Shown here piece after piece: positions 4,823 to 24,473 of a DNA stretch of 64,000 nucleotides. Source of the stretch: Eubacteriales bacterium. GTDB taxonomy: Bacteria; Bacillota; Clostridia; Oscillospirales; CAG-382. The notes below the pieces were generated by a model, which was not told where the DNA came from, searched no databases, and saw only the letters and a program-made list of their open reading frames with translations. The first letter of the stretch is position 1. Each line of letters opens with the position of its first letter. The DNA lies in NCBI GenBank assembly GCA_028705495.1, contig JAQWDK010000009.1:1-64000 (forward strand), in the 5' to 3' direction. Both the position numbers and the translations under genes were made by a program.

Positions 4823-4898
<76 letters not shown>

Positions 4899-4903
4899 GT
4901 TTT

Positions 4904-4978
4904 TGGAGGCGCCACCCAGAATCGAACTGGGGGATAAAGGTTTTGCAGACCTCTGCCTTACCGCTTGGCTATGGCGCC
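4904..4978 (-). tRNA. tRNA-Cys(GCA)
   Basis: Acceptor stem begins GGCGCCA, anticodon loop CTGCAAA (anticodon GCA), discriminator U, encoded CCA. Five bases separate it from tRNA-Thr. Confidence 0.95.
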
Positions 4979-5049
4979 GTACAAATGATTATAGTGCGTT
5001 GCAAACAAAAATGAAAGCTGAACCCGCGAAATTGGATCCAGCCTTCAGC

Positions 5050-5125
<76 letters not shown>

Positions 5126-5267
5126 GTTTTATAACGCATAGAGGTATAATATATTATATTGAATTTCCGTTCGACTGCTACCTAAAAGGAAAGGATTTTT
5201 AAGTAATCGTAAATCTGTTAAAAAAGAACGCTTGCGGTAATTAAATCATATCGCAAATTTATTCAAG

Positions 5268-5309
5268 GAAGAACGCTTGCGTTCTTCGGGATGTTTCCAA
5301 AGGAAACAT
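5268..5309. repeat. Paired-hairpin element, type G (copy 1)
   Basis: Two adjacent perfect inverted repeats: GAAGAACGC/GCGTTCTTC (5268-5287) and ATGTTTCC/GGAAACAT (5291-5309), separated by GGG. Same layout as 5898-5939. Lies in the spacer between tRNA-Phe and tRNA-Asp. Confidence 0.85.
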
Positions 5310-5343
5310 TTGCGAGCCTTTAGTTAAACAAAAACTCGATAAG

Positions 5344-5388
5344 GAAGAACGCTTGCGTTCTTCGAGAACGATTTCCTTAGAAATCGTT
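5344..5388. repeat. Paired-hairpin element, type A (copy 1)
   Basis: GAAGAACGC/GCGTTCTTC (5344-5363), then GAG, then AACGATTT/AAATCGTT (5367-5388). The second hairpin ends one base before the encoded CCA complement of tRNA-Asp. Confidence 0.85.
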
Positions 5389-5465
5389 TGGCGATCCGGA
5401 AGGGACTCGAACCCTCGACCTCTAGCGTGACAGGCTAGCGTTCTAACCAACTGAACTACCGGACC
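5389..5465 (-). tRNA. tRNA-Asp(GTC), copy 2 in transcript order
   Basis: Anticodon stem CTAGC/GCTAG with loop CTGTCAC (anticodon GTC); acceptor GGTCCGG with CCGGATC; encoded CCA. Same sequence as 6080-6156. Confidence 0.95.
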
Positions 5466-5469
5466 GTAT

Positions 5470-5545
5470 TGGAGCGGATTACGGGGCTCGAACCCGCCAC
5501 CTCGACCTTGGCAAGGTCGCGCTCTACCAAATGAGCTAAATCCGC
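5470..5545 (-). tRNA. tRNA-Gly(GCC), copy 2 in transcript order
   Basis: Anticodon loop TTGCCAA (anticodon GCC) within stem CGACC/GGTCG; acceptor GCGGATT/AATCCGC; encoded CCA. Same sequence as 6161-6236. Confidence 0.95.
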
Positions 5546-5546
5546 A

Positions 5547-5593
5547 GCGTGAAAATGAAGTATGCTTAGTTTATGACGCCCGTTTATTCACGC
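5547..5593. repeat. GCGTGAA hairpin element (tRNA spacer, copy 1)
   Basis: Inverted repeat GCGTGAA ... TTCACGC spanning 47 bp beside tRNA-Gly. The same stem sequence and size recur at 6238-6284, 15784-15829 and 15887-15932, and a relative is at 7192-7227. Confidence 0.7.
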
Positions 5594-5666
5594 CCAGGGA
5601 GGTACAAACAAAGCAACGTGAAAATGATGTATGCTTAATCTAGCAACATCGAATAAGTTGAAAACT

Positions 5667-5742
<76 letters not shown>

Positions 5743-5897
5743 AAATAGATTTGAGCATCTGCTTATAAAAGAAATGCCGAGATAAGTTAGAAGACGCGTT
5801 TCTACATCTCAGCCTGCCGACATATTAGGTTGTATGACCGATGTGTGTATAACGTCTTGTTGTAAATCCGACAAATCATAACGCAAATTTATACAAG

Positions 5898-5939
5898 GAA
5901 GAACGCTTGCGTTCTTCGGGATGTTTCCGGAGGAAACAT
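5898..5939. repeat. Paired-hairpin element, type G (copy 2)
   Basis: GAAGAACGC/GCGTTCTTC (5898-5917), GGG, then ATGTTTCCGG/AGGAAACAT (5921-5939). The loop differs from copy 1 (GGA in place of AAA) but the stem is kept. Confidence 0.85.
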
Positions 5940-5954
5940 TAAAAACCAGATAAG

Positions 5955-5998
5955 GAAGAATCCGTAGGATTCTTCGAGAACGATTCGTCAGAATCGTT
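5955..5998. repeat. Paired-hairpin element, type A (divergent copy)
   Basis: GAAGAATCC/GGATTCTTC (5955-5975), GAG, then AACGATTC/GAATCGTT (5979-5998). Both stems differ from the other copies, but both arms changed together so pairing is perfect. No counterpart exists in the other duplicate. Confidence 0.85.
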
Positions 5999-6032
5999 TG
6001 GCGAGCCTTTAGTTAAACAAAAACTCGATAAG

Positions 6033-6079
6033 GAAGAACGCTTGCGTTCTTCGAGAACGATTTTCTTTAGAAAATCGTT
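6033..6079. repeat. Paired-hairpin element, type A (copy 2)
   Basis: GAAGAACGC/GCGTTCTTC (6033-6052), GAG, then AACGATTTT/AAAATCGTT (6056-6079). The second stem is one base pair longer than in copy 1 (5367-5388), with the extra base present on both arms. Confidence 0.85.
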
Positions 6080-6156
6080 TGGCGATCCGGAAGGGACTCG
6101 AACCCTCGACCTCTAGCGTGACAGGCTAGCGTTCTAACCAACTGAACTACCGGACC
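6080..6156 (-). tRNA. tRNA-Asp(GTC), copy 1 in transcript order
   Basis: Identical to the gene at 5389-5465; anticodon GTC, encoded CCA. Confidence 0.95.
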
Positions 6157-6160
6157 GTAT

Positions 6161-6236
6161 TGGAGCGGATTACGGGGCTCGAACCCGCCACCTCGACCTT
6201 GGCAAGGTCGCGCTCTACCAAATGAGCTAAATCCGC
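6161..6236 (-). tRNA. tRNA-Gly(GCC), copy 1 in transcript order
   Basis: Identical to the gene at 5470-5545; anticodon GCC, encoded CCA. Confidence 0.95.
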
Positions 6237-6237
6237 A

Positions 6238-6284
6238 GCATGAAAATGAAGTATGCTTAGTTTATGACGCCCGTTTATTCACGC
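6238..6284. repeat. GCGTGAA hairpin element (tRNA spacer, copy 2)
   Basis: Duplicate of 5547-5593 with one G-to-A change in the left arm (GCATGAA), giving a single A-C mismatch with TTCACGC. Confidence 0.65.
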
Positions 6285-6388
6285 CCAGGGAGGTACAAAC
6301 AAAGCAACGTGAAAATGATGGTAACCAATTTATATCTTTTTTCAAATATAAACTGAGCTTGGAACGAAAATACGTCCAGGCTCAGTTT

Positions 6389-6464
6389 TGGTGGGAGCTA
6401 CAGGGCTCGAACCTGTGACCCTCTGCTTGTAAGGCAGATGCTCTCCCAGCTGAGCTAAGCTCCC
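6389..6464 (-). tRNA. tRNA-Val(TAC)
   Basis: Acceptor GGGAGCT/AGCTCCC, anticodon stem TCTGC/GCAGA with loop CTTACAA (anticodon TAC), encoded CCA. First gene of the tRNA operon. Confidence 0.95.
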
Positions 6465-10122: not shown

Positions 10123-10935
10123 ATGAAAAAAGTATTGGTTGTATCAGCGGTAATATTAATAATATTACCCATTCTTTTAATCTTCTATATTACTTATGTA
10201 GAAATGGAACAGTATAGATATGATGATAATTACAAGATAATAGAAACAGCTTATGGAGTGCCTTCACAAGTTATCAGAGGAACGATTAATGAATCCTTTG
10301 AGTTAGAAGGTCAGTTTATATCGAAAGAATTTGTTTTCATTGATATAGACACAAGCAATGAGAACCCAATCAAATTCTTGTATTCCGTTAATGATGAAGT
10401 AAAAGCCGGAGATTGTTTAGCATTAATCGGAGACGAGAAAATCTATTCACAATATAACGGTATTATTGCGGACTTCAGTTTTACGGCAAACGACTCTTAT
10501 ATTAAATTACTTAATTTAGAGAAATTGATGTTTGAATGTTATTATAATGGCGACCTTTCTATTGAAGAGAGTAAAACATATACCACAACGGATAATAACA
10601 AATTGACTATTACATCAGTCTCAAACATTTATGATGAGCAGGGCAGGAAAATATATGCACAAGTCGAAAATGATGAGTATATGTATGGTCAAAAGGCGAA
10701 ATTTATCGTTAACACTGGTGTTTCTTATGAGGATGTGCTTATGATTAGAAAAGATTGCATTTATCGTAAAGAGATGGATGGAAAGCATTATATCAGAAGA
10801 GTTAAAAGCAACAGAGAAGTTATAGGTGAAGTCGAAGTAACCCCCGGAATCTCGGACGGAAATATGATCAGCATTACAGGACTGGAAGAAGGATGGTACT
10901 GTGACCCTGGTTATGCTAAGTTCTTGAATAATTAA
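10123..10935 (+). CDS. HlyD/MacA-like membrane fusion protein, short form
   Basis: Single N-terminal membrane anchor (residues 4-23) followed by an extracytoplasmic domain of about 245 residues. VNDEVKAGDCLALIGDEKIYSQYNGIIADF at about 88-118 has the shape of the lipoyl/barrel-sandwich hybrid domain of HlyD/MacA-type adaptors (turn V..GD.L). It is followed by beta-barrel-like strands and a C-terminal VTPGISDGNMISITGLEEGWYC that resembles the adaptor membrane-proximal domain (G.. dG..veI..GL..G). The long coiled-coil hairpin of classical adaptors is missing, as expected in a Gram-positive with no outer membrane channel. Binding site AGGAAGG; 5 bases after the lipoprotein stop. Confidence 0.75.
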   Translation: MKKVLVVSAVILIILPILLIFYITYVEMEQYRYDDNYKIIETAYGVPSQVIRGTINESFELEGQFISKEFVFIDIDTSNENPIKFLYSVNDEVKAGDCLALIGDEKIYSQYNGIIADFSFTANDSYIKLLNLEKLMFECYYNGDLSIEESKTYTTTDNNKLTITSVSNIYDEQGRKIYAQVENDEYMYGQKAKFIVNTGVSYEDVLMIRKDCIYRKEMDGKHYIRRVKSNREVIGEVEVTPGISDGNMISITGLEEGWYCDPGYAKFLNN

Positions 10936-12861: not shown

Positions 12862-13914
12862 TTAAACTATAAATTCAATTATTTTTGCAGTTACCTGAGC
12901 ATTGTTCAGAGTTCCTCCGAGGTCTGCTGTCAGAAATCCGCCGTCAAGTGCTTTTTCGACTGCTGCTTCAATATCGTCCGCTTCTTTTGAAAGCGAGAAG
13001 GAGTATCTAAGCATCATTGCCACGGACAGGATTGTCGCAATCGGGTTTGCGATGCCCTTTCCTGCAATGTCGGGTGCTGAGCCGTGTATCGGCTCATACA
13101 TGCCCCTTGTGCCTTCACCAAGGGAAGCGGAGGGGAGCATACCGATTGAGCCCGTGAGCTGGGAAGCTTCGTCCGAGAGGATGTCGCCGAACATATTTGA
13201 GGTGACGATGACATCAAACTGAGCGGGGTTTCTAATCAGCTGCATTGCAGCGTTGTCCACGAGCATATCCGAATATTCAACCTCCGGGTATTCCGCTGAA
13301 AGTCTGTGCATTGTCTCACGCCAGAGTCTGGAGGTTTCGAGGATATTTGCCTTGTCGATGCTTGTCAGCTTCTTCCCGCGCTTCATAGCTGCGTCAAAAG
13401 AAACTCTGCCAATGCGCTCAATCTCGGTTATACTGTAGCTTTCTGTGTCGTATGCCTCCGGGCCATACTTGCCCTCGCGCCTTCCGTTTTCGCCGAAGTA
13501 GATACCGCCTGTGAGCTCACGGACGATGAGTATATCAAAACCGTCGGTTACACGCAGCGGACATCTTTCAGCAAGTGCGCCATAGAGCTTTGCCGGTCTG
13601 AGATTGGCGTATAGCTCAAGCCCCTTGCGAACGCCGAGGAGTGCCTTTTCGGGGCGCAGATTGCCGGGTAGTGTATCCCATTTCGGACCGCCCACAGCAC
13701 CGAGCAGTACGCTGTCGCTGTCGAGACAGCCTTGCAGCGTTTCCTCCGGTAGGGGAACACCGGTTGCATCGATTGCACAACCTCCGGCAAGGTAGGACTT
13801 GTATTCAATTTTATGTCCGTATTTTTCTGCTACTTTATCAAGCACAAGGCACGCGCTGTCCACAATTTCAGGACCGATTCCATCACCTTTTAGAAGTGCG
13901 AGTTTTATATTCAT
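12862..13914 (-). CDS. leuB: 3-isopropylmalate dehydrogenase
   Basis: NAD-dependent oxidative decarboxylase of leucine synthesis; in this operon it may also act on methylmalate made by CimA/LeuCD. Seen: GDGIGPEIV at the N-terminus, NLRPAKLYG near residue 105, [12 protein letters not shown], a Lys-Asp pair at [17 protein letters not shown], and [23 protein letters not shown], followed by [18 protein letters not shown]. 350 aa, normal length. AGAGG precedes the ATG. Last gene of the nine-gene operon, followed by a bidirectional terminator. Confidence 0.97.
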
Positions 13915-13929
13915 TTTTTGACCTCTTTA

Positions 13930-14421
13930 TTAGAATTTTCCGCTTTTAACAGCGCTTACAAGACCGCCTGCTTCGATTATGGACTGGATGAAGGCGGGGA
14001 ACGGTTCGGACTGATATTCCTTGCCCGTCGTCAGGTTTTTGATAACACCTGTTTCGAAGTTCATTTCAACGCTGTCGCTTTCGTTTATCTCATTTGCAGC
14101 TGCTTCACATTCAACAATCGGGAGACCGATGTTAATGGAGTTGCGGTAGAAGATTCTTGCAAAGCTCTGCGCTATGATAAGGGAGATGCCGCTTTCCTTG
14201 ATAGCGATTGGCGCATGCTCACGGGATGAGCCGCAGCCGAAGTTCTTGCCTGCAACCATGATATCGCCCTGCTTCACCTTCTTGACAAAATCCTTGTCAA
14301 TATCCTCCATGCAGTGGGCGGCAAGCTCCTTTTTGTCGCTGGTATTGAGGTAGCGAGCCGGGATTATAACGTCGGTGTCAACATTGTCACCGTATTTTAA
14401 TGCTTTTCCGTTTACATTCAT
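13930..14421 (-). CDS. leuD: 3-isopropylmalate dehydratase small subunit
   Basis: Small subunit that pairs with LeuC to isomerise 2- to 3-isopropylmalate, and probably citramalate to methylmalate. Seen: [16 protein letters not shown] at the N-terminus, [14 protein letters not shown] near residue 60, and [16 protein letters not shown]. 163 aa is the short bacterial/archaeal type rather than the ~200-aa enterobacterial type. Good binding site (GAAAGGA). 15 bases before leuB. Confidence 0.96.
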
Positions 14422-14440
14422 TATTTATTTTCCTTTCTGA

Positions 14441-14466
14441 AGATTGAAAGATTTATCTTTCAATCT
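14441..14466. other. Intercistronic hairpin between leuC and leuD
   Basis: Perfect 12-bp inverted repeat AGATTGAAAGAT/ATCTTTCAATCT with a 2-base centre; it includes the leuC stop codon. Confidence 0.7.
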
Positions 14467-15737
14467 TTGTCGCCTGCTACTTCTTCAGGACGAGAGATTT
14501 TGCCTGTTATAGCGCTTGCTGCTGCGACTGCCGGGCTTGCGAGATAGACTTCGGATTCCGGATGTCCCATTCTGCCGACAAAGTTGCGGTTGGTCGTAGA
14601 AACAGCACGTTCACCCTTTGCAAGGATGCCCATATGTCCGCCAAGGCAGGGTCCGCAGGTCGGTGTAGAAACTGCAGCACCAGCTTCGATAAAGTCCTTG
14701 AGCAGTCCGAGCTGCATACATTCGAGGTAGATTTTCTGTGTTGCGGGGATTACGATGGTTCTGACATTTTTAGCAACCTTTTTGCCCCTCATGATGTCTG
14801 CGGCTATGATAAAGTCCTCAAGTCTGCCGTTTGTGCAGGAACCGATAACAACCTGATCGATTTTTATGTCGCCGATTGCATCAAATGTTCTTGCGTTTTC
14901 GGGAAGATGGGGGAATGCGACGGTCGGTTCGATTTTGCTAAGGTCAATCACAATTTCACGCTCATAAACTGCGTCCTCGTCAGCCTTGTAAACTACAGGC
15001 TTTTTAGCGCCGACCTCTTCAAGGAATGCTATCGTCTGCTCGTCAACCTCGAAAATACCGTTCTTTGCACCTGCTTCGATTGCCATATTGGCGATACAAA
15101 GCCTGTCGCTGACGGTGAGGTTCTTGACGCCGTCTCCGGTGAACTCCATCGATTTGTAAAGCGCACCGTCAACGCCGATAAGACCGATTATGTGGAGTAT
15201 AACATCCTTGCCGCCGACCCAGCCTTTGGGTTTACCGGTGAGGACAAATTTTATCGCTTCGGGAACTTTGAACCAAGCTTTACCCGTAGCCATTCCGCAT
15301 GCCATATCGGTAGAGCCGACACCTGTAGAGAACGCGCCGAGTGCGCCGTAAGTACAGGTATGGGAGTCTGCACCGATTACAATGTCGCCTGCAGTTACAA
15401 GCCCTTTTTCGGGGAGAAGTGCGTGTTCAACACCTGTTTCACCGCAGTCATAGAAGTTTTCAATACCCATATCATCCGCAAAAATGCGGCATTTCTTTGT
15501 CTGTTCGGCGGCTTTTATGTCCTTGTTGGGGACAAAGTGGTCCATTACGAGGGAGACTCTCTTTTTATCGAAAACCCTCCCTGTACCAAGTCTTTCAAAT
15601 TCATTTATCGCAACAGGCGAGGTGATGTCATTGCCAAGCACCATGTCGACATTAGCAAGAATAAGCTGTCCGGCAGTAACGCTCTCAAGTCCCGCGTGGA
15701 ACGCGAGTATCTTTTGTGTCATTGTCATTTTACTCAT
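14460..15737 (-). CDS. leuC: 3-isopropylmalate dehydratase large subunit
   Basis: Aconitase-family large subunit holding a [4Fe-4S] cluster. Cluster cysteines are seen in VIGSCTNGR and the C-terminal [30 protein letters not shown] and the substrate region MDHFVP are present. Start: [16 protein letters not shown] at 15737, with GGAGA just upstream. The frame continues open for another 30 codons upstream, but that extension lies in the repeated hairpin leader and is not family-like. 425 aa fits the monomeric, archaeal-type LeuC/HacA that pairs with a short LeuD. Confidence 0.96.
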
Positions 15738-15775
15738 ATTATTTCTCCGTTTTTTAGATTTCACGCTTAGGTTTA

Positions 15776-15831
15776 ATTTTGGGGCGTGAATAACCTGTAG
15801 TTGGATTTCGCCTAAGTTAGATTTCACGCTT
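15776..15831. repeat. 56-bp direct repeat, copy 1 (leuC leader)
   Basis: Perfect copy of 15879-15934. Contains the hairpin 15784-15829 with stem GCGTGAA/TTCACGC and an inner 6-bp stem (TAACTT/AGGTTA on the minus strand). Located between the cimA stop and the leuC start. Confidence 0.9.
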
Positions 15832-15878
15832 GTGCTTTTCCCCTTTTACATTCAAGTTCATGAAATTCAATTTATTGA

Positions 15879-15934
15879 ATTTTGGGGCGTGAATAACCTG
15901 TAGTTGGATTTCGCCTAAGTTAGATTTCACGCTT
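15879..15934. repeat. 56-bp direct repeat, copy 2 (3' end of cimA)
   Basis: Perfect copy of 15776-15831. It overlaps the last codons and stop of cimA, so the repeat supplies the CimA C-terminal residues KREI. Confidence 0.9.
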
Positions 15935-17485
15935 AGATAATTTATATTCAACTGAGTCGGCGAGAGCGATTATACTCGCTTCGATTATGTCGTTTGATAC
16001 ACCGATTGTGGTCCAGGTACTGCTGTCGTCCGAGGTTTCTATCAAGACTCTGACTCGGGCGGCGGTTGTGCTGTTTTGCTCAAGCACACGAACCTTGTAG
16101 TCTGTCAGCTGCATATCTTTTATCGAGGGGTAGAATACAGTGAGAGCTTTTCTAAGCGCAAGGTCGAGCGCATTTACTGGGCCGTTGCCCATCACCGCAG
16201 TTACTTCTTCGTTTCCGTCAACCTCAACTTTTATTGTCGCTGAGGCGGGCATACCGCCTTCCGGGACGGGGAACTCACCCATTGTTCTGTAAAGTACAAG
16301 TCGGAAATGCGGTTTGTATGTGCCAAGCACCTTTTTAACCATAAGCTCAAAACTTGCATCCGCAGCTTCAAAGTGATAACCCTGATGCTCAAGTTCTTTG
16401 AGTTTTTCGAGAATTTCAGCGGTTTTCGGTGAATCCTTTGTAAGCTCAGGCGCAATATTGTGTATTTTTGAAATGATAAGGCTCCTTCCGGAAACCTCCG
16501 ATAAAAGAAACTTTCTTGTATTGCCGACCGCTTCCGGTGCAATATGCTCAAAAGATGCTGCCAGCTTCATCACTCCGTCAATATGCATTCCGCCCTTGTG
16601 GGCAAAAGCTCCAGAGCCTGTATAGGGTTTATTCGGTTCAATCGAGGTGTTGGAGATTTCTGCGATACGCCTTGAAACATTAAACAAATTTTCAGTGTTT
16701 CCACCGCATTCACAGCCTAATTTTAACTTAAGGTTTGGTATTATCACACTTAAATCAGCATTGCCGCATCTTTCACCTATCCCGGTAAATGTACCCTGAA
16801 CCTGTGAAGCGCCTGCTTTGACCGAAAGCATAGAGTTTGCGACAGCGCAACCGGTGTCGTTATGACAGTGTATGCCGATTTTCATCTCTGGATGCGCTTC
16901 TATGACCTTCTTTGTGACCTCGAACACCTCATGGGGCAGGGTTCCGCCGTTGGTGTCGCAAAGCACAAGCGTCTCAGCGCCGCCTTTTGCGGCAGCGGCA
17001 AGAACACTCATTGCGTAATCGGGATTGGACTTGTAACCGTCAAAGAAGTGTTCAGCGTCGAAGAAAACTCTTTTACCTTTGGAAACAAGATATCTCACTG
17101 TGCTCTCAACTATATCTAGGTTTTCTTCAAGCGTCGCCTTTAGTATCTCCTCAACATGAAGATCCCATGATTTGCCGAATATCGCAACAACATCAGTGTT
17201 TGCGTCCAGCAGAGATTTTATATTGGTGTCCTCGTCCGCTGAAACATTTTTCCTTCTTGTGCTACCGAAGGCGCATAAAGTGGCATTTTTCAGCTCAAGC
17301 TCAGCTGCACGGGTGAAAAACTCAAGGTCCTTAGGGTTGGACCCTGGGTTTCCGGCTTCTATGTAATCGACGCCGAACTCATCGAGTGCCTTTACAATGT
17401 GTAGTTTGTCATTCACAGAAAAGGAAATACCCTCACCCTGAGCGCCGTCCCTTAGCGTGGAATCAAATATTTCAATTCTTCTCAT
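15920..17485 (-). CDS. cimA: (R)-citramalate synthase
   Basis: Condenses pyruvate and acetyl-CoA to citramalate, the first step of the threonine-independent isoleucine route. TIM-barrel with FDSTLRDGAQGEGISFSVNDKL at the N-terminus, YIEAGNPGSNPKD, CDTNGGTLPHE, GIHCHNDTGCAVANS, and a GAFAHKGGMHIDGV motif; the C-terminal third is the allosteric LeuA dimer domain. The long 521-aa form with SNPKDLEFF and MHIDGVMK is the CimA rather than LeuA type, and a separate true leuA lies immediately upstream. The last four residues are encoded inside a repeated hairpin element. Binding site GAAAGGA. Confidence 0.9.
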   Translation of the reverse strand: MRRIEIFDSTLRDGAQGEGISFSVNDKLHIVKALDEFGVDYIEAGNPGSNPKDLEFFTRAAELELKNATLCAFGSTRRKNVSADEDTNIKSLLDANTDVVAIFGKSWDLHVEEILKATLEENLDIVESTVRYLVSKGKRVFFDAEHFFDGYKSNPDYAMSVLAAAAKGGAETLVLCDTNGGTLPHEVFEVTKKVIEAHPEMKIGIHCHNDTGCAVANSMLSVKAGASQVQGTFTGIGERCGNADLSVIIPNLKLKLGCECGGNTENLFNVSRRIAEISNTSIEPNKPYTGSGAFAHKGGMHIDGVMKLAASFEHIAPEAVGNTRKFLLSEVSGRSLIISKIHNIAPELTKDSPKTAEILEKLKELEHQGYHFEAADASFELMVKKVLGTYKPHFRLVLYRTMGEFPVPEGGMPASATIKVEVDGNEEVTAVMGNGPVNALDLALRKALTVFYPSIKDMQLTDYKVRVLEQNSTTAARVRVLIETSDDSSTWTTIGVSNDIIEASIIALADSVEYKLSKREI

Positions 17486-17515
17486 CTATCTTTTCCTTTC
17501 AGAGTGAGGAGCACA

Positions 17516-19024
17516 TCAAACCATGCTCGAGAGCTTATTTATACCGTTGACATAGGCAAGAATACTTGACTCTATGATGTCGGTGGAAAGTCCGCGTCCT
17601 GTTACGGTTTTATCCTTAGCACGCATTTTTACAGTCACTTCGCCGAGTGCGTCATTACCGTCCGATATGGAATGGATATTATAACTATTCATTTCCTCAC
17701 AAATGCCGCCGGTGATCTTGTCGATGGCATTGTATGCGGCGTTAATCGGCCCCTGTCCGAGGGATACTTCCTCGAGTATCTCATTACCCTTGCGGAGTTT
17801 GACAACACAAGCGGAAGTGGAATTCATCGATGTATGAACATCAAAATGTTCGAGTTTGTAAACGCCTTCGCTCATCTCTCTATTGTTGACAATCGCTTCG
17901 ATATCGCTGTCGGTAATGAACTTTTTCTTGTCGGAGAGGTCGATGATTTTTTCATAATAAGAAGCAAGCTGATTTTCGTCAAAAGTATAACCGAGCTCTC
18001 TAATTTTATCGGCGATTGCGTGTTTACCGGAATGTTTGCCTATGACAAGATTATTTTTTGTGATACCGATTTCCTCGGGCACCATAATTTCATAAGTAGA
18101 TTTATCAGCTAACACTCCATGCTGATGGATGCCTGCTTCGTGAGCAAAGGCGTTAGCGCCTATTATGGGCTTGTTTATTGCAGGGGTATGCCCGATAATA
18201 TTGTATACAAGTTTACTTGTTCGGTTTATCTGCTTTGTATCAATCCTTGACTCACAGCCGAAGAATGGCTTTCTTGTTTTGAGTGCCATAACAACTTCTT
18301 CGAGTGCGGCGTTTCCTGCACGCTCACCGATACCATTGATCGTACATTCTACTTGTCTTGCACCTGCTTTAACACCAGCAAGAGAGTTTGCGACAGCCAT
18401 ACCGAGGTCGTTGTGGCAGTGTACTGCAACATCAACTTTTTCAATACCCTTGACGGTTTCATAAAGATAACGAATCCGAGAGTACATTTCTTCAGGTGTT
18501 ATATATCCTACGGTGTCGGGTATGTTGACAACAGCCGCACCTGCTTCAATCGCCGTCTGAACTGCGAGAGCGAGAAATTCCTTATCGGAACGCATAGCGT
18601 CTTCAGCAGAGAATTGGATATCACTACAGAGGGTTTTTGCGTAGGAGACAGAGTTTTTTATGCGCTCGATTACCTGGTCGGGTGTCATCTTGAGTTTATG
18701 CTGCATGTGGATGGGGGAAGTGGCGAGAAAAACGTGAATTCGCGGCGAAACAGCATTTTTCACTGCTTCATAGGCGGTGTCTATGTCCTTTTGCACAGCT
18801 CTCGCAAGGGATGCGACTCTGCTGTTTTTTATAACACCAGCCACGATTTCAACGGACTTAAAGTCCCCCGGAGACGAAATCGCAAATCCGGCTTCGATAA
18901 TATCCACACCGAGTAGCTCTAGCTGTTTTGCAATCTCGACTTTCTCGTCAAGGTTCATACTGCAGCCGGGAGCCTGCTCTCCGTCACGCAGGGTTGTATC
19001 AAATATTTTTACATGCGTGTCCAT
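17516..19024 (-). CDS. leuA: 2-isopropylmalate synthase
   Basis: First committed step of leucine synthesis from 2-oxoisovalerate and acetyl-CoA. Seen: FDTTLRDGEQAPGCSMNLDEKV (catalytic RDGEQ), IEAGFAISSPGD, VAVHCHNDLGMAVANSLAGVKAGARQVE, and NAFAHEAGIHQHGVL; the C-terminal domain ends with SLGQGPINAAYNAIDKI and TVTGRGLSTDIIESS, the leucine feedback domain. 502 aa. A binding site is weak; the ATG follows a hairpin (19037-19056) with 12 bases between. It sits between ilvD and cimA in the operon. Confidence 0.95.
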   Translation of the reverse strand: MDTHVKIFDTTLRDGEQAPGCSMNLDEKVEIAKQLELLGVDIIEAGFAISSPGDFKSVEIVAGVIKNSRVASLARAVQKDIDTAYEAVKNAVSPRIHVFLATSPIHMQHKLKMTPDQVIERIKNSVSYAKTLCSDIQFSAEDAMRSDKEFLALAVQTAIEAGAAVVNIPDTVGYITPEEMYSRIRYLYETVKGIEKVDVAVHCHNDLGMAVANSLAGVKAGARQVECTINGIGERAGNAALEEVVMALKTRKPFFGCESRIDTKQINRTSKLVYNIIGHTPAINKPIIGANAFAHEAGIHQHGVLADKSTYEIMVPEEIGITKNNLVIGKHSGKHAIADKIRELGYTFDENQLASYYEKIIDLSDKKKFITDSDIEAIVNNREMSEGVYKLEHFDVHTSMNSTSACVVKLRKGNEILEEVSLGQGPINAAYNAIDKITGGICEEMNSYNIHSISDGNDALGEVTVKMRAKDKTVTGRGLSTDIIESSILAYVNGINKLSSMV

Positions 19025-19036
19025 GTTATTTTATCG

Positions 19037-19056
19037 CGCCGGAACTGTTTCCGGCG
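19037..19056. other. Intercistronic hairpin between ilvD and leuA
   Basis: Perfect 8-bp stem CGCCGGAA/TTCCGGCG with loop CTGT, just upstream of the leuA start where a strong ribosome binding site is lacking. Confidence 0.65.
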
Positions 19057-19074
19057 GCTTGCCTTTCTAAATTT

Positions 19075-20769
19075 CTATTTATTGCGGTCGCAGTAAATGT
19101 CTTGGTTGACAACTGCACCTTTGTCCGCTGAGGATACCATCATCGCATATCTTGCGATATAGCCTTTCAGGTCGGTTTTTTGTTTGGGAGCGCTTTCTTT
19201 CATCCGCTTCTCATGCTCATCTGCATCAACCAAAAGCTCAAGCTTTTTAGCAGGGATATCGATTGAAATTAAATCTCCCTCCTTGACATAAGCAATCGGT
19301 CCACCTTGGGAGGCTTCGGGGGATATATGTCCGATAGCAGCGCCCCTCGTTGCACCGGAAAATCTTCCGTCGGTGATGAGCGCAACATCCTTGTCAAGCC
19401 CCATACCTGCTATAGCGGAGGTCGGAGACAGCATTTCCCTCATTCCGGGCCCACCAGCGGGTCCTTCATATCGGATGACGACAACGTCCCCTTTGACTAT
19501 CTTACCATCAAATATCGCATCTATCGCCTCTTCTTCGCTGTCAAACACCCTTGCGGGGCCTGTATGCACGAGCATTTCAGGTGCGACTGCGCTTCTCTTC
19601 ACAACTGCACCCTTAGGAGCAAGTGAGCCAAAGAGAACAGCTATACCCCCAGTAGCGGAGTAGGGATTTTCAAGAGGTCTAATGACGTCTTTATTTATTA
19701 TCTTATACTTTTCATTTTTAAGATTCTCACCCATTGTTGCGCCTGTAACTGTCATACAGTCACCATTGATGTAGCCGCCACCCATGAGTGTTTCCATAAC
19801 CTTGTAAACGCCGCCTGCGTTATGCAGGTCCTGCATATGGTAAGGTCCGGAAGGCGCAAGTTTGCAGAGGTTCGGTGTCTTTTCGCTGATTTTATTTATA
19901 AGCTCAAGGTCGATTTTTACCCCTGCTTCATTTGCGATAGCCATCAGGTGAAGCACAGAGTTTGTAGAGCAGCCAAGCGCCATATCAACGGCAAGCGCGT
20001 TGTGAAACGCCTTTTCTGTCATAATATCTCTCGGGCGTATATCTTTCTTGAAAACCTCAAGCACTTTTTCGCCTGCAGTCTTAGCCAGTCTTATACGCTT
20101 TGAGTAAACCGCAGGGATTGAACCATTACCAGGAAGTGCCATACCGATAGCTTCTGTAAGGCAGTTCATCGAGTTTGCTGTGAACATACCCGAACAAGAA
20201 CCGCAGCTCGGGCAGGCGCTTTCTTCAATCGCATGTACTTCTTCTTCTGTCATCGTGCCGTTTTTGTAGCTGCCGACAGCCTCGAATGCGCTGTTGAGGT
20301 CAAGGCAAGAACCGCCTTCACCCTCGAGCGAGAGCATAGGACCACCGGACACAAAAACTGACGGAAGGTTAAGTCTTGCCGCAGCCATCAGCATAGCTGG
20401 TACGATTTTATCGCAGTTGGGGATGAACACAAATGCGTCGAAGCAGTGTGCCATCGCCATACATTCAATGCTGTCAGCTATTACCTCGCGGGAAGCAAGG
20501 GAGTATTTCATCCCCTGATGACCCATCGCAAGCCCATCGCAGACACCGATTACGTTAAACTCAGCAGGTGTTCCTCCAGCGGCAAGGACACCGTCCTTGA
20601 CCGCTCTGGAGATAGTCTGCAGATGAACATGGCCGGGTACGATTTCGTTGAAGGAGTTGACAATACCTATGAGCGGTTTTGTCATATCCTTGTCGGAATA
20701 GCCCATAGCTTTAAGAAGCGAACGCTGAGGTGCTTTTTCTATACCTTTTGTTATTTTTTCGCTGTTCAT
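19075..20769 (-). CDS. ilvD: Dihydroxy-acid dehydratase
   Basis: Fe-S dehydratase, third common step for Ile/Val. Seen: [37 protein letters not shown] with the cluster Cys, [28 protein letters not shown], and the C-terminal [25 protein letters not shown]. Start at 20769 (MNSEKITKG) with GGAAA just upstream; an in-frame ATG four codons earlier has no site. 564 aa, normal. Confidence 0.97.
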
Positions 20770-20818
20770 ATAAATTTCCATTCTGCCGCAAAGCAGCTTG
20801 CATTAGATAAGCGTAAGA

Positions 20819-21841
<1,023 letters not shown>

Positions 21842-21867
21842 TTAATTTTTTATATATAATGAGATTT

Positions 21868-22383
21868 TTAAAGTGAGTATGCTCCGCGTTTCATTGCGAG
21901 AGCTCCTGAACGGCATATTTCAATTATGCCGTAATTTTTTGTGAATTCAATAAAAGCGTTTAGTTTTGAGGGCTCGCCGTTGATTTCAATCGTCAGCGAT
22001 TCTGTATTAAAATCAACAATCTTACCTCTGAAAACATTTACCGCTTCGGTTATCTCGCTTCTCGTTTGGCGGTCAACGCTTATTTTAATAAGCAGATGCT
22101 CTCGGAGAACGGTTTCGGCCTTCGGTAGGAGTTCTACCTTTTTAACTTCCTGAAGTTTTGCAAGTTGTTTTACGATTTGCGATTTGATGTAATCATCACC
22201 GGTTACAATAATCGTCATCCTTGAGAGAGCGGGGTTTTCGGTTTCGCCTACATTGAGGCTGTCGATATTGTATCCGCGGCGGGAGAAAAGCCCCGATATG
22301 CGAGTTAGTACACCAAAATGGTTTGAAACAAGGACGCTTAGGATAAATTGTTCTCTATCGTTGTTATCAGTAGCATTGTTCAT
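21868..22383 (-). CDS. ilvN: Acetolactate synthase small subunit
   Basis: Regulatory subunit that gives valine feedback to IlvB. ACT domain with FILSVLVSNHFGVLTRISGLFSRRGYNIDSLNVGETENP at the N-terminus, then MTIIVTGDD and the conserved C-terminal half (ISVDRQTRSEITEAVNVFRGKIVDF). Start 22383 has GGAGG five bases upstream; the in-frame ATG at 22395 contains that GGAGG itself. 171 aa. 16 bases after ilvB. Symbol ilvN/ilvH is interchangeable here. Confidence 0.96.
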   Translation of the reverse strand: MNNATDNNDREQFILSVLVSNHFGVLTRISGLFSRRGYNIDSLNVGETENPALSRMTIIVTGDDYIKSQIVKQLAKLQEVKKVELLPKAETVLREHLLIKISVDRQTRSEITEAVNVFRGKIVDFNTESLTIEINGEPSKLNAFIEFTKNYGIIEICRSGALAMKRGAYSL

Positions 22384-22399
22384 GTTAGCCTCCATTTAT

Positions 22400-24061
22400 T
22401 CAATTTACTATCATACTGTCAATTGAGCTGCCAGCAGGGATCATCGGGAGAACCCTCTCGTCGATGTCAATTACGCAGTCTATGAGAAACGGTCCATTTG
22501 TGGCAAGTGCTTTTTCAAGCGCTGCGTCGAACTGCGCTTCAGTTTCAGCTCTTGCACCGTCAGCGCCGAAAGCCTTTGCGAGTGCGACAAAATCAGTTTT
22601 TCTGTTAAGGGTTGTGTTAGAATACCTTTCTCCGAAAAACAGCTTCTGCCACTGCCTTACCATTCCGAGGGTGTGGTTGTTCATAACGACAATAATAATC
22701 GGAAGTCCGTTTGATACAGCGGTTACTGTTTCGTGGAGGTTCATACCATAGCTTCCATCGCCGGTTACAAGAATTGTGCGCTGTCCGCCGCTTCCTATAC
22801 AGCCTCCGATTGCGGCACCCATTCCGTATCCCATAGTACCGAGTCCGCCGGAGGTGAGGAAGGTTCTTCTGCCTTTGAACTTGAAAAACTGTGCGGTCCA
22901 CATCTGGTGCTGCCCGACATCTGTTGCAACGATGGTCTTCTCATCGGCTTTTGCGTTGATCTTCTCGATAATATTTCTCGGATGCATTCCTTCGGCTTTT
23001 GGAGCGTTTTCATTTTCAAAAGCTCTGAACTCGTTAATCTGATCCCACCATTCGGGATGCTTTGTTTTCGCAATCTTTTCTGTAAGCTTGCGGAGAATAG
23101 CTTTCACATCTCCGTTTACGCTCTTAAAAACATCAATATTTTTACCGAACTCTGCCGGGTCGATGTCTATGTGGACGATTTTAGCATTAGGTGCGTATTT
23201 TGATTTGTTACCAGTTGCTCTATCGCTAAATCTAACGCCTAAAGCAATAATAAGATCAGCTTCGTAATTTGCTTTAATTGAAGCATAGTGCCCGTGCATA
23301 CCCGTCATACCGAGGTTGTTGGGGTGATTTCCGTCAAGGGCTGATAAACCCATTATTGAAAGCCCAATCGGGGCATCTATCTTCTCTGCAAGCGCTTTAA
23401 CCTCATCACTTGCATCAGATATGACAATACCGCCGCCGCTGTAGATATAGGGCTTTTTAGATTCGGAGATAAGAGATGCGATTTCGTCAATCTCGCTTTC
23501 CGCAGGGAGGGAATAGGACTTCTTTTCTGCAGGAGTTTGTTTTTTATATTCAGCGCTTGCAAGCTGGATATCCTTGGGTATATCTACAAGAACAGGTCCA
23601 GGTCTTCCTGACTTTGCAATATAAAACGCTTCTCGGAGGATTGAAGCAAGCTCGTTTACGCTCCTGACGATGTAATTATGCTTTGTTATGGGCATTGTCA
23701 CACCCATTATATCCACTTCCTGAAAACTGTCTCTGCCTAAGAGGTTGAGAGGGACGTTTCCTGTAATGGCGACAAGTGGTACGGAATCAAGAAACGCGTT
23801 AGCGATACCGGTCACAAGGTTAGTAGCTCCAGGACCTGAGGTTGCTATAACAACACCGACTTTGCCGGAAGCTCTCGCATATCCGTCGGCTGCGTGTGCT
23901 GCTCCTTGCTCGTGGGCGCCGATAATGTGATTGATGCGATCCTGCGCCTTGTAGAGCTCATCGTAAATATTGAGTACAAAACCTCCGGGATAGCCGAACA
24001 CCGTGTCACAGCCTTGTTCTATTAAGGTTTCAACTATAATCTGTGCGCCCGTCATTTTCAT
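22400..24061 (-). CDS. ilvB: Acetolactate synthase large subunit
   Basis: Thiamine-diphosphate enzyme making acetolactate/acetohydroxybutyrate. Seen: GCDTVFGYPGGFVLNIYDEL, GAHEQGAAHAADGYARASGKVGV with the catalytic Glu, TSGPGATN, the FAD-binding middle, and the TPP motif VTGDGSYGMNLHETVTAV...NNHTLGMVRQWQ. First structural gene after the leader peptide and attenuator. Start 24061 (MKMTGAQ) is preferred; ATG 24073 lies directly on AAAGGA. About 553 aa. Confidence 0.97.
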   Translation of the reverse strand: MKMTGAQIIVETLIEQGCDTVFGYPGGFVLNIYDELYKAQDRINHIIGAHEQGAAHAADGYARASGKVGVVIATSGPGATNLVTGIANAFLDSVPLVAITGNVPLNLLGRDSFQEVDIMGVTMPITKHNYIVRSVNELASILREAFYIAKSGRPGPVLVDIPKDIQLASAEYKKQTPAEKKSYSLPAESEIDEIASLISESKKPYIYSGGGIVISDASDEVKALAEKIDAPIGLSIMGLSALDGNHPNNLGMTGMHGHYASIKANYEADLIIALGVRFSDRATGNKSKYAPNAKIVHIDIDPAEFGKNIDVFKSVNGDVKAILRKLTEKIAKTKHPEWWDQINEFRAFENENAPKAEGMHPRNIIEKINAKADEKTIVATDVGQHQMWTAQFFKFKGRRTFLTSGGLGTMGYGMGAAIGGCIGSGGQRTILVTGDGSYGMNLHETVTAVSNGLPIIIVVMNNHTLGMVRQWQKLFFGERYSNTTLNRKTDFVALAKAFGADGARAETEAQFDAALEKALATNGPFLIDCVIDIDERVLPMIPAGSSIDSMIVN

Positions 24062-24135
24062 TTTTATGACCATTCCTTTCTTGATAACTAATTGAAATAT
24101 TTATCTTTCAATCTGTCCCTTTAAAAAATTATAAT

Positions 24136-24171
24136 AAAAAAGAGTCTTACAGCTTTGCACTGTAAGACTCT
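24136..24171 (-). terminator. Attenuator terminator upstream of ilvB
   Basis: Read on the minus strand, AGAGTCTTACAG (24171-24160) pairs over 12 bp with CTGTAAGACTCT (24152-24141), seven-base loop, then TTTTTT. It lies between the leader peptide stop (24197) and ilvB. The leader segment 24225-24217 (GTGCTGTAA, codons 31-34 of the leader) can pair with 24165-24157 (TTACAGTGC) and so open the 5' arm. Confidence 0.85.
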
Positions 24172-24196
24172 AAGGTTTGTCGAAGAATTCGCCGCC

Positions 24197-24316
24197 TCAA
24201 CAACAATCCGCCTTCTTTACAGCACAAAAAACGCCATTACCAATAATGCTTAGCACCACGACTAGGCTGATAATGACGATATTAATAATTATTGCTGCAA
24301 AATTCGCGGACATCAT
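24197..24316 (-). CDS. Branched-chain leader peptide (IlvL-like) of the ilv-leu operon
   Basis: 39-codon frame beginning ATG ATG TCC GCG, too short to be listed by most gene finders. Codons 9-25 hold 8 Ile, 4 Val and 2 Leu in 17 positions (IIINIVIISLVVVLSII), both Leu being CTA; it ends CAVKKADCC and TGA. AAAGGA stands 11 bases before the ATG. The gene lies between a consensus promoter (24408-24380) and a 12-bp rho-independent hairpin (24171-24136) ahead of ilvB. Organisation and composition match ribosome-mediated attenuation leaders such as E. coli IlvL. Alternative: a tiny single-helix Cys-ended membrane protein resembling FeoB-associated proteins; the hydrophobic run and final Cys-Cys would allow that. 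Confidence 0.75.
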   Translation of the reverse strand: MMSANFAAIIINIVIISLVVVLSIIGNGVFCAVKKADCC

Positions 24317-24379
24317 TATAATGGCTTTCCTTTCGGTTACTGTAAAGCGGGTATTGTGAACCGCCGATATATTATTATT

Positions 24380-24408
24380 ATAATATCACTGAGAGATGTT
24401 TCTGTCAA
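24380..24408 (-). promoter_or_regulatory. Promoter of the ilv-leu operon
   Basis: Minus strand TTGACA (24408-24403), 17-base spacer, TATTAT (24385-24380). Expected transcript start near 24373, about 57 bases before the leader peptide ATG. Confidence 0.85.
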
Positions 24409-24473
24409 CAGTTATTTTTTATATAATTTAATTCCACCTGCCGAGATAATATGTCAAAAAGAACGGATTAAAG

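Follow-up and report, generated by a model that had tools for sequence, protein, structure and literature searches.

Predicted leader-peptide attenuation of the ilvB operon in a lineage of Clostridia

Branched-chain amino acid biosynthesis in the window (the whole stretch of 64,000 nucleotides that was analysed, from an uncultured clostridial bacterium of gut type) is encoded by the genes ilvB-ilvN-ilvC-ilvD-leuA-cimA-leuC-leuD-leuB, which provide the pathway to valine, leucine and, via citramalate, isoleucine. The region upstream of ilvB raises the question of how transcription of this operon is controlled, and an earlier note on this DNA had proposed a leader peptide and attenuator rather than a T-box. 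This proposal is supported by the conservation of peptide composition only, the covariation of terminator and antiterminator, a bias towards rare codons and the absence of T-box and CodY matches, while the response itself is predicted. It is very probable that ilvBNCD-leuA-cimA-leuCDB is controlled by a ribosome-mediated transcription attenuator of the classical trp/his/ilv type, in which leader translation, termination and the response to starvation are predicted steps.

Organisation of the ilvB upstream region

The features of the locus are as follows:
24380..24408, minus strand: predicted sigma-70-type promoter, TTGACA-N17-TATTAT with an extended -10 TG, 11/12 consensus matches
24328..24333, minus strand: Shine-Dalgarno (SD)-like AAAGGA, 11 nt 5' of the leader ATG, read directly from the sequence
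24197..24316, minus strand: leader ORF MMSANFAAIIINIVIISLVVVLSIIGNGVFCAVKKADCC, 39 codons and a stop, matched by equivalent leaders in 24 other genomes of the order
24242..24292, minus strand: control codons 9-25, 14/17 Ile/Val/Leu, both Leu codons being the rare CTA
24233..24277, minus strand: P1 hairpin, GTCATTATC (24277..24269) with GGTAATGGC (24241..24233), recognised by its stability and two-sided changes
24217..24229, minus strand: antiterminator strand (region 2), TTTTGTGCTGTAA, codons 30-34
24153..24165, minus strand: terminator 5' arm and loop (region 3), TTACAGTGCAAAG, partner of region 2
24141..24171, minus strand: intrinsic terminator, AGAGTCTTACAGT-GCAAA-GCTGTAAGACTCT followed by TTTTT, 13 pairs with a loop of 5
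22400..24073, minus strand: ilvB, acetolactate synthase large subunit, first gene of the operon (TIGR00118, 714 bits), starting at 24073 or 24061
12862..22395, minus strand: ilvN, ilvC, ilvD, leuA, cimA, leuC, leuD and leuB (NCBIfam), an uninterrupted run on a single strand

The promoter, the AAAGGA element and the 39-codon frame with fourteen Ile/Val/Leu residues in codons 9-25 were all located as described in the earlier note, with a TG before the -10 element in addition, and the hairpin with its T run is likewise present, with 13 pairs where 12 bp had been given. On the minus strand the leader occupies the space between ilvB and a terminator-like hairpin that belongs to a lipoprotein-like gene upstream. 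When the 450-nt region was dinucleotide-shuffled 5000 times, 17 of the shuffles contained an ORF as rich in Ile/Leu/Val. One other equally rich ORF was found in the 64-kb window, near position 10628; it lies antisense within a gene and was dismissed as chance. The leader RNA of the window folds with z = -5.3 relative to shuffles. SD-like elements (AAAGGGG, GAGGT and GGAG) are found at comparable sites in the relatives. Two components of an attenuator can thus be read from the DNA, namely a short ORF, predicted to be translated, with control codons for the products of the operon, and an intrinsic terminator between this ORF and the first gene, the latter in both the window and its relatives.

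Antiterminator pairing and ribosome position

Upstream regions of ilvB were gathered from the family and order of the window. Twenty-five genomes of one order, including that of the window, carry an Ile/Val/Leu-rich leader ORF at ilvB, with a recognisable terminator before ilvB in nearly all cases, and these leaders are too divergent for trustworthy automatic alignment. In the window, UUUUGUGCUGUAA (24229..24217) pairs with UUACAGUGCAAAG (24165..24153), a segment which includes the terminator loop, over 13 contiguous pairs, three of them G-U. The previously claimed pairing between the leader end and the terminator therefore stands, but not its length of nine pairs with two G-U. For each of the 25 leaders a pairing energy was computed between the 3' end of the ORF and the 5' arm plus loop of the terminator from the same leader, and the energies were summed. 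With arms cut by hand and sequences that are related, the summed pairing of region 2 with region 3 amounted to -327.1 kcal/mol, compared to -246.4 (sd 12.7) when terminators were permuted among the genomes (as good as the own terminators in 0/2000), -240.2 (sd 11.7) for dinucleotide shuffles and -254.6 (sd 13.0) for synonymous recoding. Around ten of the 25 leaders, including L128, L129, L131, L140, L178, L182 and L183, do not attain significance individually. Within the family of the window, the 13-bp antiterminator register is paired in 91 % of cells and shows two-sided changes at four pairs, three of which involve terminator-loop bases that have no partner within the terminator. Covariation of antiterminator and terminator, for which the earlier note had proposed a comparison of related leaders, is thus observed.

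The distance between the last control codon and the antiterminator strand is 5-29 nt in the 25 leaders and mostly 11-23 nt, which is approximately the downstream reach of a ribosome, while the strand ends at the stop codon or a few codons 5' of it. Ribosome placement was modelled in silico by folding only the RNA downstream of the footprint, before the 3' arm of the terminator exists. Whether the A site was set at the start, the middle or the end of the control codons, the antiterminator formed in 23-24 of the 25 leaders, as opposed to only seven when folded free of a ribosome. A ribosome near the stop codon masked the antiterminator strand, the zero count for the stop codon itself being a consequence of the assumed footprint, and the switch point of the window leader fell between codons 25 and 31. 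At equilibrium the terminator was more stable than the antiterminator in every case, and the switch must therefore be kinetic, as it is in known attenuators. In the window, the stop codon lies at least 10 nt past the antiterminator strand and a ribosome parked there covers the strand only partly, so that masking must come from a moving, coupled ribosome. The terminator swaps, covariation, geometry and ribosome placement together identify an antiterminator which is mutually exclusive with the terminator and close enough to be covered or exposed by the ribosome.

Under attenuation, the transcript would start at approximately 24373 and the leader peptide would be translated behind RNA polymerase. 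Where charged Ile-, Val- or Leu-tRNA is scarce, the ribosome would stall within codons 9-25, leaving UUUUGUGCUGUAA (codons 30-34) free to pair with the emerging 5' arm and loop of the terminator, and the polymerase would read through to ilvB. Where charged tRNAs are ample, a ribosome over codons 30-40 would mask UUUUGUGCUGUAA, the terminator would form and transcription would end near 24141.

There is a slim chance that the main switch is instead the initiation of leader translation, with CUUUACAG (24347..24340) of the 5' UTR and the SD-ATG region pairing with region 2. The minimum-energy fold of the leader in the window contains this pairing, which surpasses shuffles (-28.3 kcal/mol; p = 0.003) and hides the antiterminator strand when the ribosome is absent. 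However, when tested in all relatives as a conserved part it proved not to be conserved, being non-significant in most of them, including the sister species L003 of the same genus (p = 0.54). Since it is missing in L003 and most others, it represents an individual addition and not a defining part, and is best read as a local feature that would make termination the default for an untranslated leader. The long helix of the 5' UTR and SD with the antiterminator strand (24347-24217, minus strand) would also hide the SD when no ribosome loads. In L003, L005 and L125, region 2 is not hidden by the 5' UTR.

Codon usage and the P1 hairpin

Across the 25 leaders the control run consists of 77 % Ile, Val and Leu (36, 26 and 16 %, respectively), and Phe, Met and Trp are almost absent. 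Composition and spacing of the peptides are kept, while neither their sequence nor their cysteines are. The opposite pattern, a protein-like peptide with retained cysteines beside a hairpin that is not conserved, had been named beforehand as evidence against attenuation, and it is contradicted across these leaders. The comparison of Ile/Val/Leu codons among relatives, also proposed earlier, showed the run to be retained with a bias towards a rare synonym. The codon CTA accounts for 29 of the 76 leader Leu codons (38 %), compared to 3.2 % in the ORFs of the same loci and 5.6 % in those of the window (binomial p 1e-23, a value which ignores relatedness). GTT, the most common Val codon, is scarcer in the leaders (13 % versus 39-44 %), and no enrichment was found for ATA (20 % versus 27 %). 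The leu attenuator of Salmonella likewise employs rare CUA control codons, and swapping these lowered its sensitivity (PMC1183508). The rare CTA codons probably sharpen the response to starvation.

A further constraint on the codons is the P1 hairpin, with counterparts in other leaders that include GGCATTATC..GATAATGCT and GCTGTCGCC..GGTGATAGC. Its summed stability is -382.7, as against -253.9 (sd 14.6) for synonymous recodings drawn from the codons of the leaders themselves. Two-sided changes occur at 9/9 pairs and 96 % of cells are paired (14 distinct leaders, with arms chosen by hand). The 3' arm corresponds to a recurring peptide motif, (D/G)NA, which follows the control run. As P1 ends just 5' of the antiterminator strand, the two do not compete in most leaders. 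P1 probably serves as a hairpin for pausing or timing, as a spacer, or through coaxial stacking with the antiterminator.

These codon and RNA data lead to rejection of the reading, assigned a very low probability, that the ORF specifies a small membrane protein with a function of its own and that the hairpin merely terminates this ORF or is a 5' terminator unconnected with it. The peptide is hydrophobic, could span a membrane and resembles transmembrane segments in a weak Pfam match below the threshold. Nevertheless, its run is rich in Ile and Val and nearly devoid of Phe, Met and Trp, conservation extends to composition and position but not to sequence, and a membrane protein offers no reason for the strong enrichment of CTA. 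In addition, P1 places a constraint on synonymous positions, and the 3' end of the ORF covaries with the terminator loop. No protein family was matched at the cut-off when five leaders were searched against Pfam and NCBIfam, nor any leader-peptide family even at E values of up to 10. On account of four independent tests, namely the antiterminator swaps, the CTA bias, the P1 covariation and the in silico ribosome placement, the leader is favoured as a codon sensor over a conserved small protein.

A more tentative proposal, held with less than even confidence, is that these leaders constitute a distinct class of ilvB attenuator RNA, absent from Rfam, which follows the ilvB lineage across families of Clostridia and perhaps into Lentisphaerota, and in which P1 is conserved, in register with the codons and directly 5' of the antiterminator. 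Unlike region 1:2 of the trp model, P1 has no 3' arm in common with the antiterminator, and under this proposal it would act as an element of its own, in timing or stacking.

Distribution and relation to known systems

The least credible alternative is that a divergent T-box, a ppGpp riboswitch or a new riboswitch sensing a metabolite or tRNA drives the terminator and that the ORF is incidental, for while ilvB genes of other lineages in the same order lie under T-boxes and the leader RNA of the window is strongly structured, Infernal searches with Rfam yielded no T-box (RF00230) and no credible family at gathering or permissive thresholds, no conserved aptamer-like sequence was seen outside the ORF and terminator, and the conserved RNA features lie in, and shift with, the codons of the ORF. 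The searches thus reject a T-box, ppGpp or other known riboswitch at this leader, and the T-box absence claimed in the earlier note held in the Infernal run it had suggested. The T-box model does match elsewhere in the window's own genome, at three sites of which one exceeds the gathering score. The genes that follow these sites, named here from their sequence, are of the HTH-cupin-AMP-ligase type, of the tryptophan synthase beta type, and thrS; T-boxes are therefore in use in this genome, but not at the ilvB leader. The first of these T-boxes (L208, C53:50198-50439) has an unusual target, a gene for a protein resembling an HTH-cupin-AMP-binding acyl-CoA synthetase. CodY (PF06018) was found in none of 20 genomes (the window's own, 97 % complete, and 19 relatives), while two control genomes expected to carry it gave matches.

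T-boxes precede ilvB at 22 of the collected loci. In a tree of the IlvB proteins the leader and T-box labels are strongly clustered, with five changes each where shuffles give approximately 20; one clade of 59 rows contains all 25 leaders, and the other contains 19/22 T-boxes. Many members of the window's family (f1) have an ilvB without a detected leader element, and leader, T-box and unlabelled ilvB lineages all occur within it, from which it follows that the control element tracks the gene lineage. This suggests operon transfer or replacement behind the distribution of the sensors. One further leader (L126) was spotted later by eye, and tree rows labelled 'none' hence mean 'none detected'. 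Similar leaders precede close ilvB homologues outside the order, in Oribacterium sinus DSM 17245 (Lachnospiraceae), Oligosphaera ethanolica DSM 24202 and a Lentisphaerae MAG. The antiterminator pairing is significant in O. sinus (GCGUAACGC with GCGUUACGC, p = 0.007) and in the Lentisphaerae MAG (p = 0.023), and not individually so in the others outside the order. A scan of viral contigs gave only distant ilvB homologues.

The ilvGMEDA (IlvL) and ilvBN (IvbL) operons of Escherichia coli similarly combine a branched-chain-rich peptide of around 30-40 codons with a terminator and a competing antiterminator, and serve the synthesis of the same amino acids (PMC6123439). They differ in operon content and in that P1 here joins the control codons to those that directly follow, and no sequence relation to IlvL or IvbL was found with the curated Pfam/NCBIfam models at cut-off. 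Among Firmicutes, peptide-leader attenuation likewise replaces the T-box at the ilv-leu operon in Listeria monocytogenes (Rli60; PMC5864092) and at ilvD in Staphylococcus aureus (PMC5794164), as shown by mutation in both species. These are Bacilli in which ilvD comes first, the peptides are 13 and 26 aa long and the attenuators act with CodY, whereas the present system is clostridial, begins with ilvB and occurs where CodY was not found. The contrast with Firmicutes drawn in the earlier note holds as regards the T-box and CodY here, but is less sharp than stated, given these attenuators.

The ilvB-II motif of Corynebacterium and the ilvB-OMG and Leptospira ilvB motifs, proposed attenuators from other lineages and of different motif, also place a uORF with branched-chain codons and a terminator before ilvB (PMC10272879). 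Rfam gave no match in 13 sources with further leaders and none that was credible in the window, the ilvB-OMG and ilvB motifs being unconfirmed in the copy of Rfam used. The same study predicts uORF attenuation of ilvB to be common, which the clostridial case bears out. Peptide-leader control of ilv genes is established in enteric bacteria, and for Actinobacteria, Corynebacterium among them, it has been either proposed or demonstrated (PMC1262725, PMC10272879). The T-box of ilv operons (RF00230) shares aminoacylation sensing and terminator control at the same gene in sister lineages, but binds uncharged tRNA directly. Predicted his leader-peptide attenuators of the Peptostreptococcaceae are also found in the class Clostridia, but concern histidine, other families and few species (PMC9413887), and T-box to leader peptide switches in Firmicutes have been noted for hisS (PMC2965389). 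No report of ilv peptide-leader attenuation in this group of Clostridia was found in the open-access literature. Branched-chain leader peptides are thus already known in Proteobacteria, Actinobacteria and Bacilli, and what is new is their clostridial spread and the conserved P1.

Within one bacterial order, this operon thus has a T-box in some lineages and a peptide leader in others, a replacement that follows the ilvB lineage rather than the species family, and a mode of control known experimentally in Bacilli is predicted to extend to gut Clostridia in which CodY was not found. With 25 attenuators and the cultured relative O. sinus DSM 17245, sensor switching and the role of P1 become practically testable.

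Several further features were observed. In L011, L012 and L014 (genus g6, same family) a TGA lies inside the ilvB match, just before the likely ATG, and their upstream regions contain no leader. A Ruminococcus flavefaciens MAG (L042) has a separate Ile/Val-rich small ORF, MRTVYISSGIVIIIGAVINVSDCSLSSFCPNGALAF, with a terminator approximately 240-380 nt 5' of ilvB, perhaps another leader, and a c-di-GMP-II riboswitch lies close to the ilvB locus of a family member (L006, 4480-4563). Three members of the window's family correspond to MAGs that carry the label Oscillospiraceae or Clostridia bacterium, and ruminant rectum is the source of two. The window itself carries a tRNA-Leu(gag) at 2191-2276 and, at 4823-6464 on the minus strand, a cluster of nine tRNA genes in which an Asp-Gly unit and a Phe unit each occur twice, apparently through local duplication.
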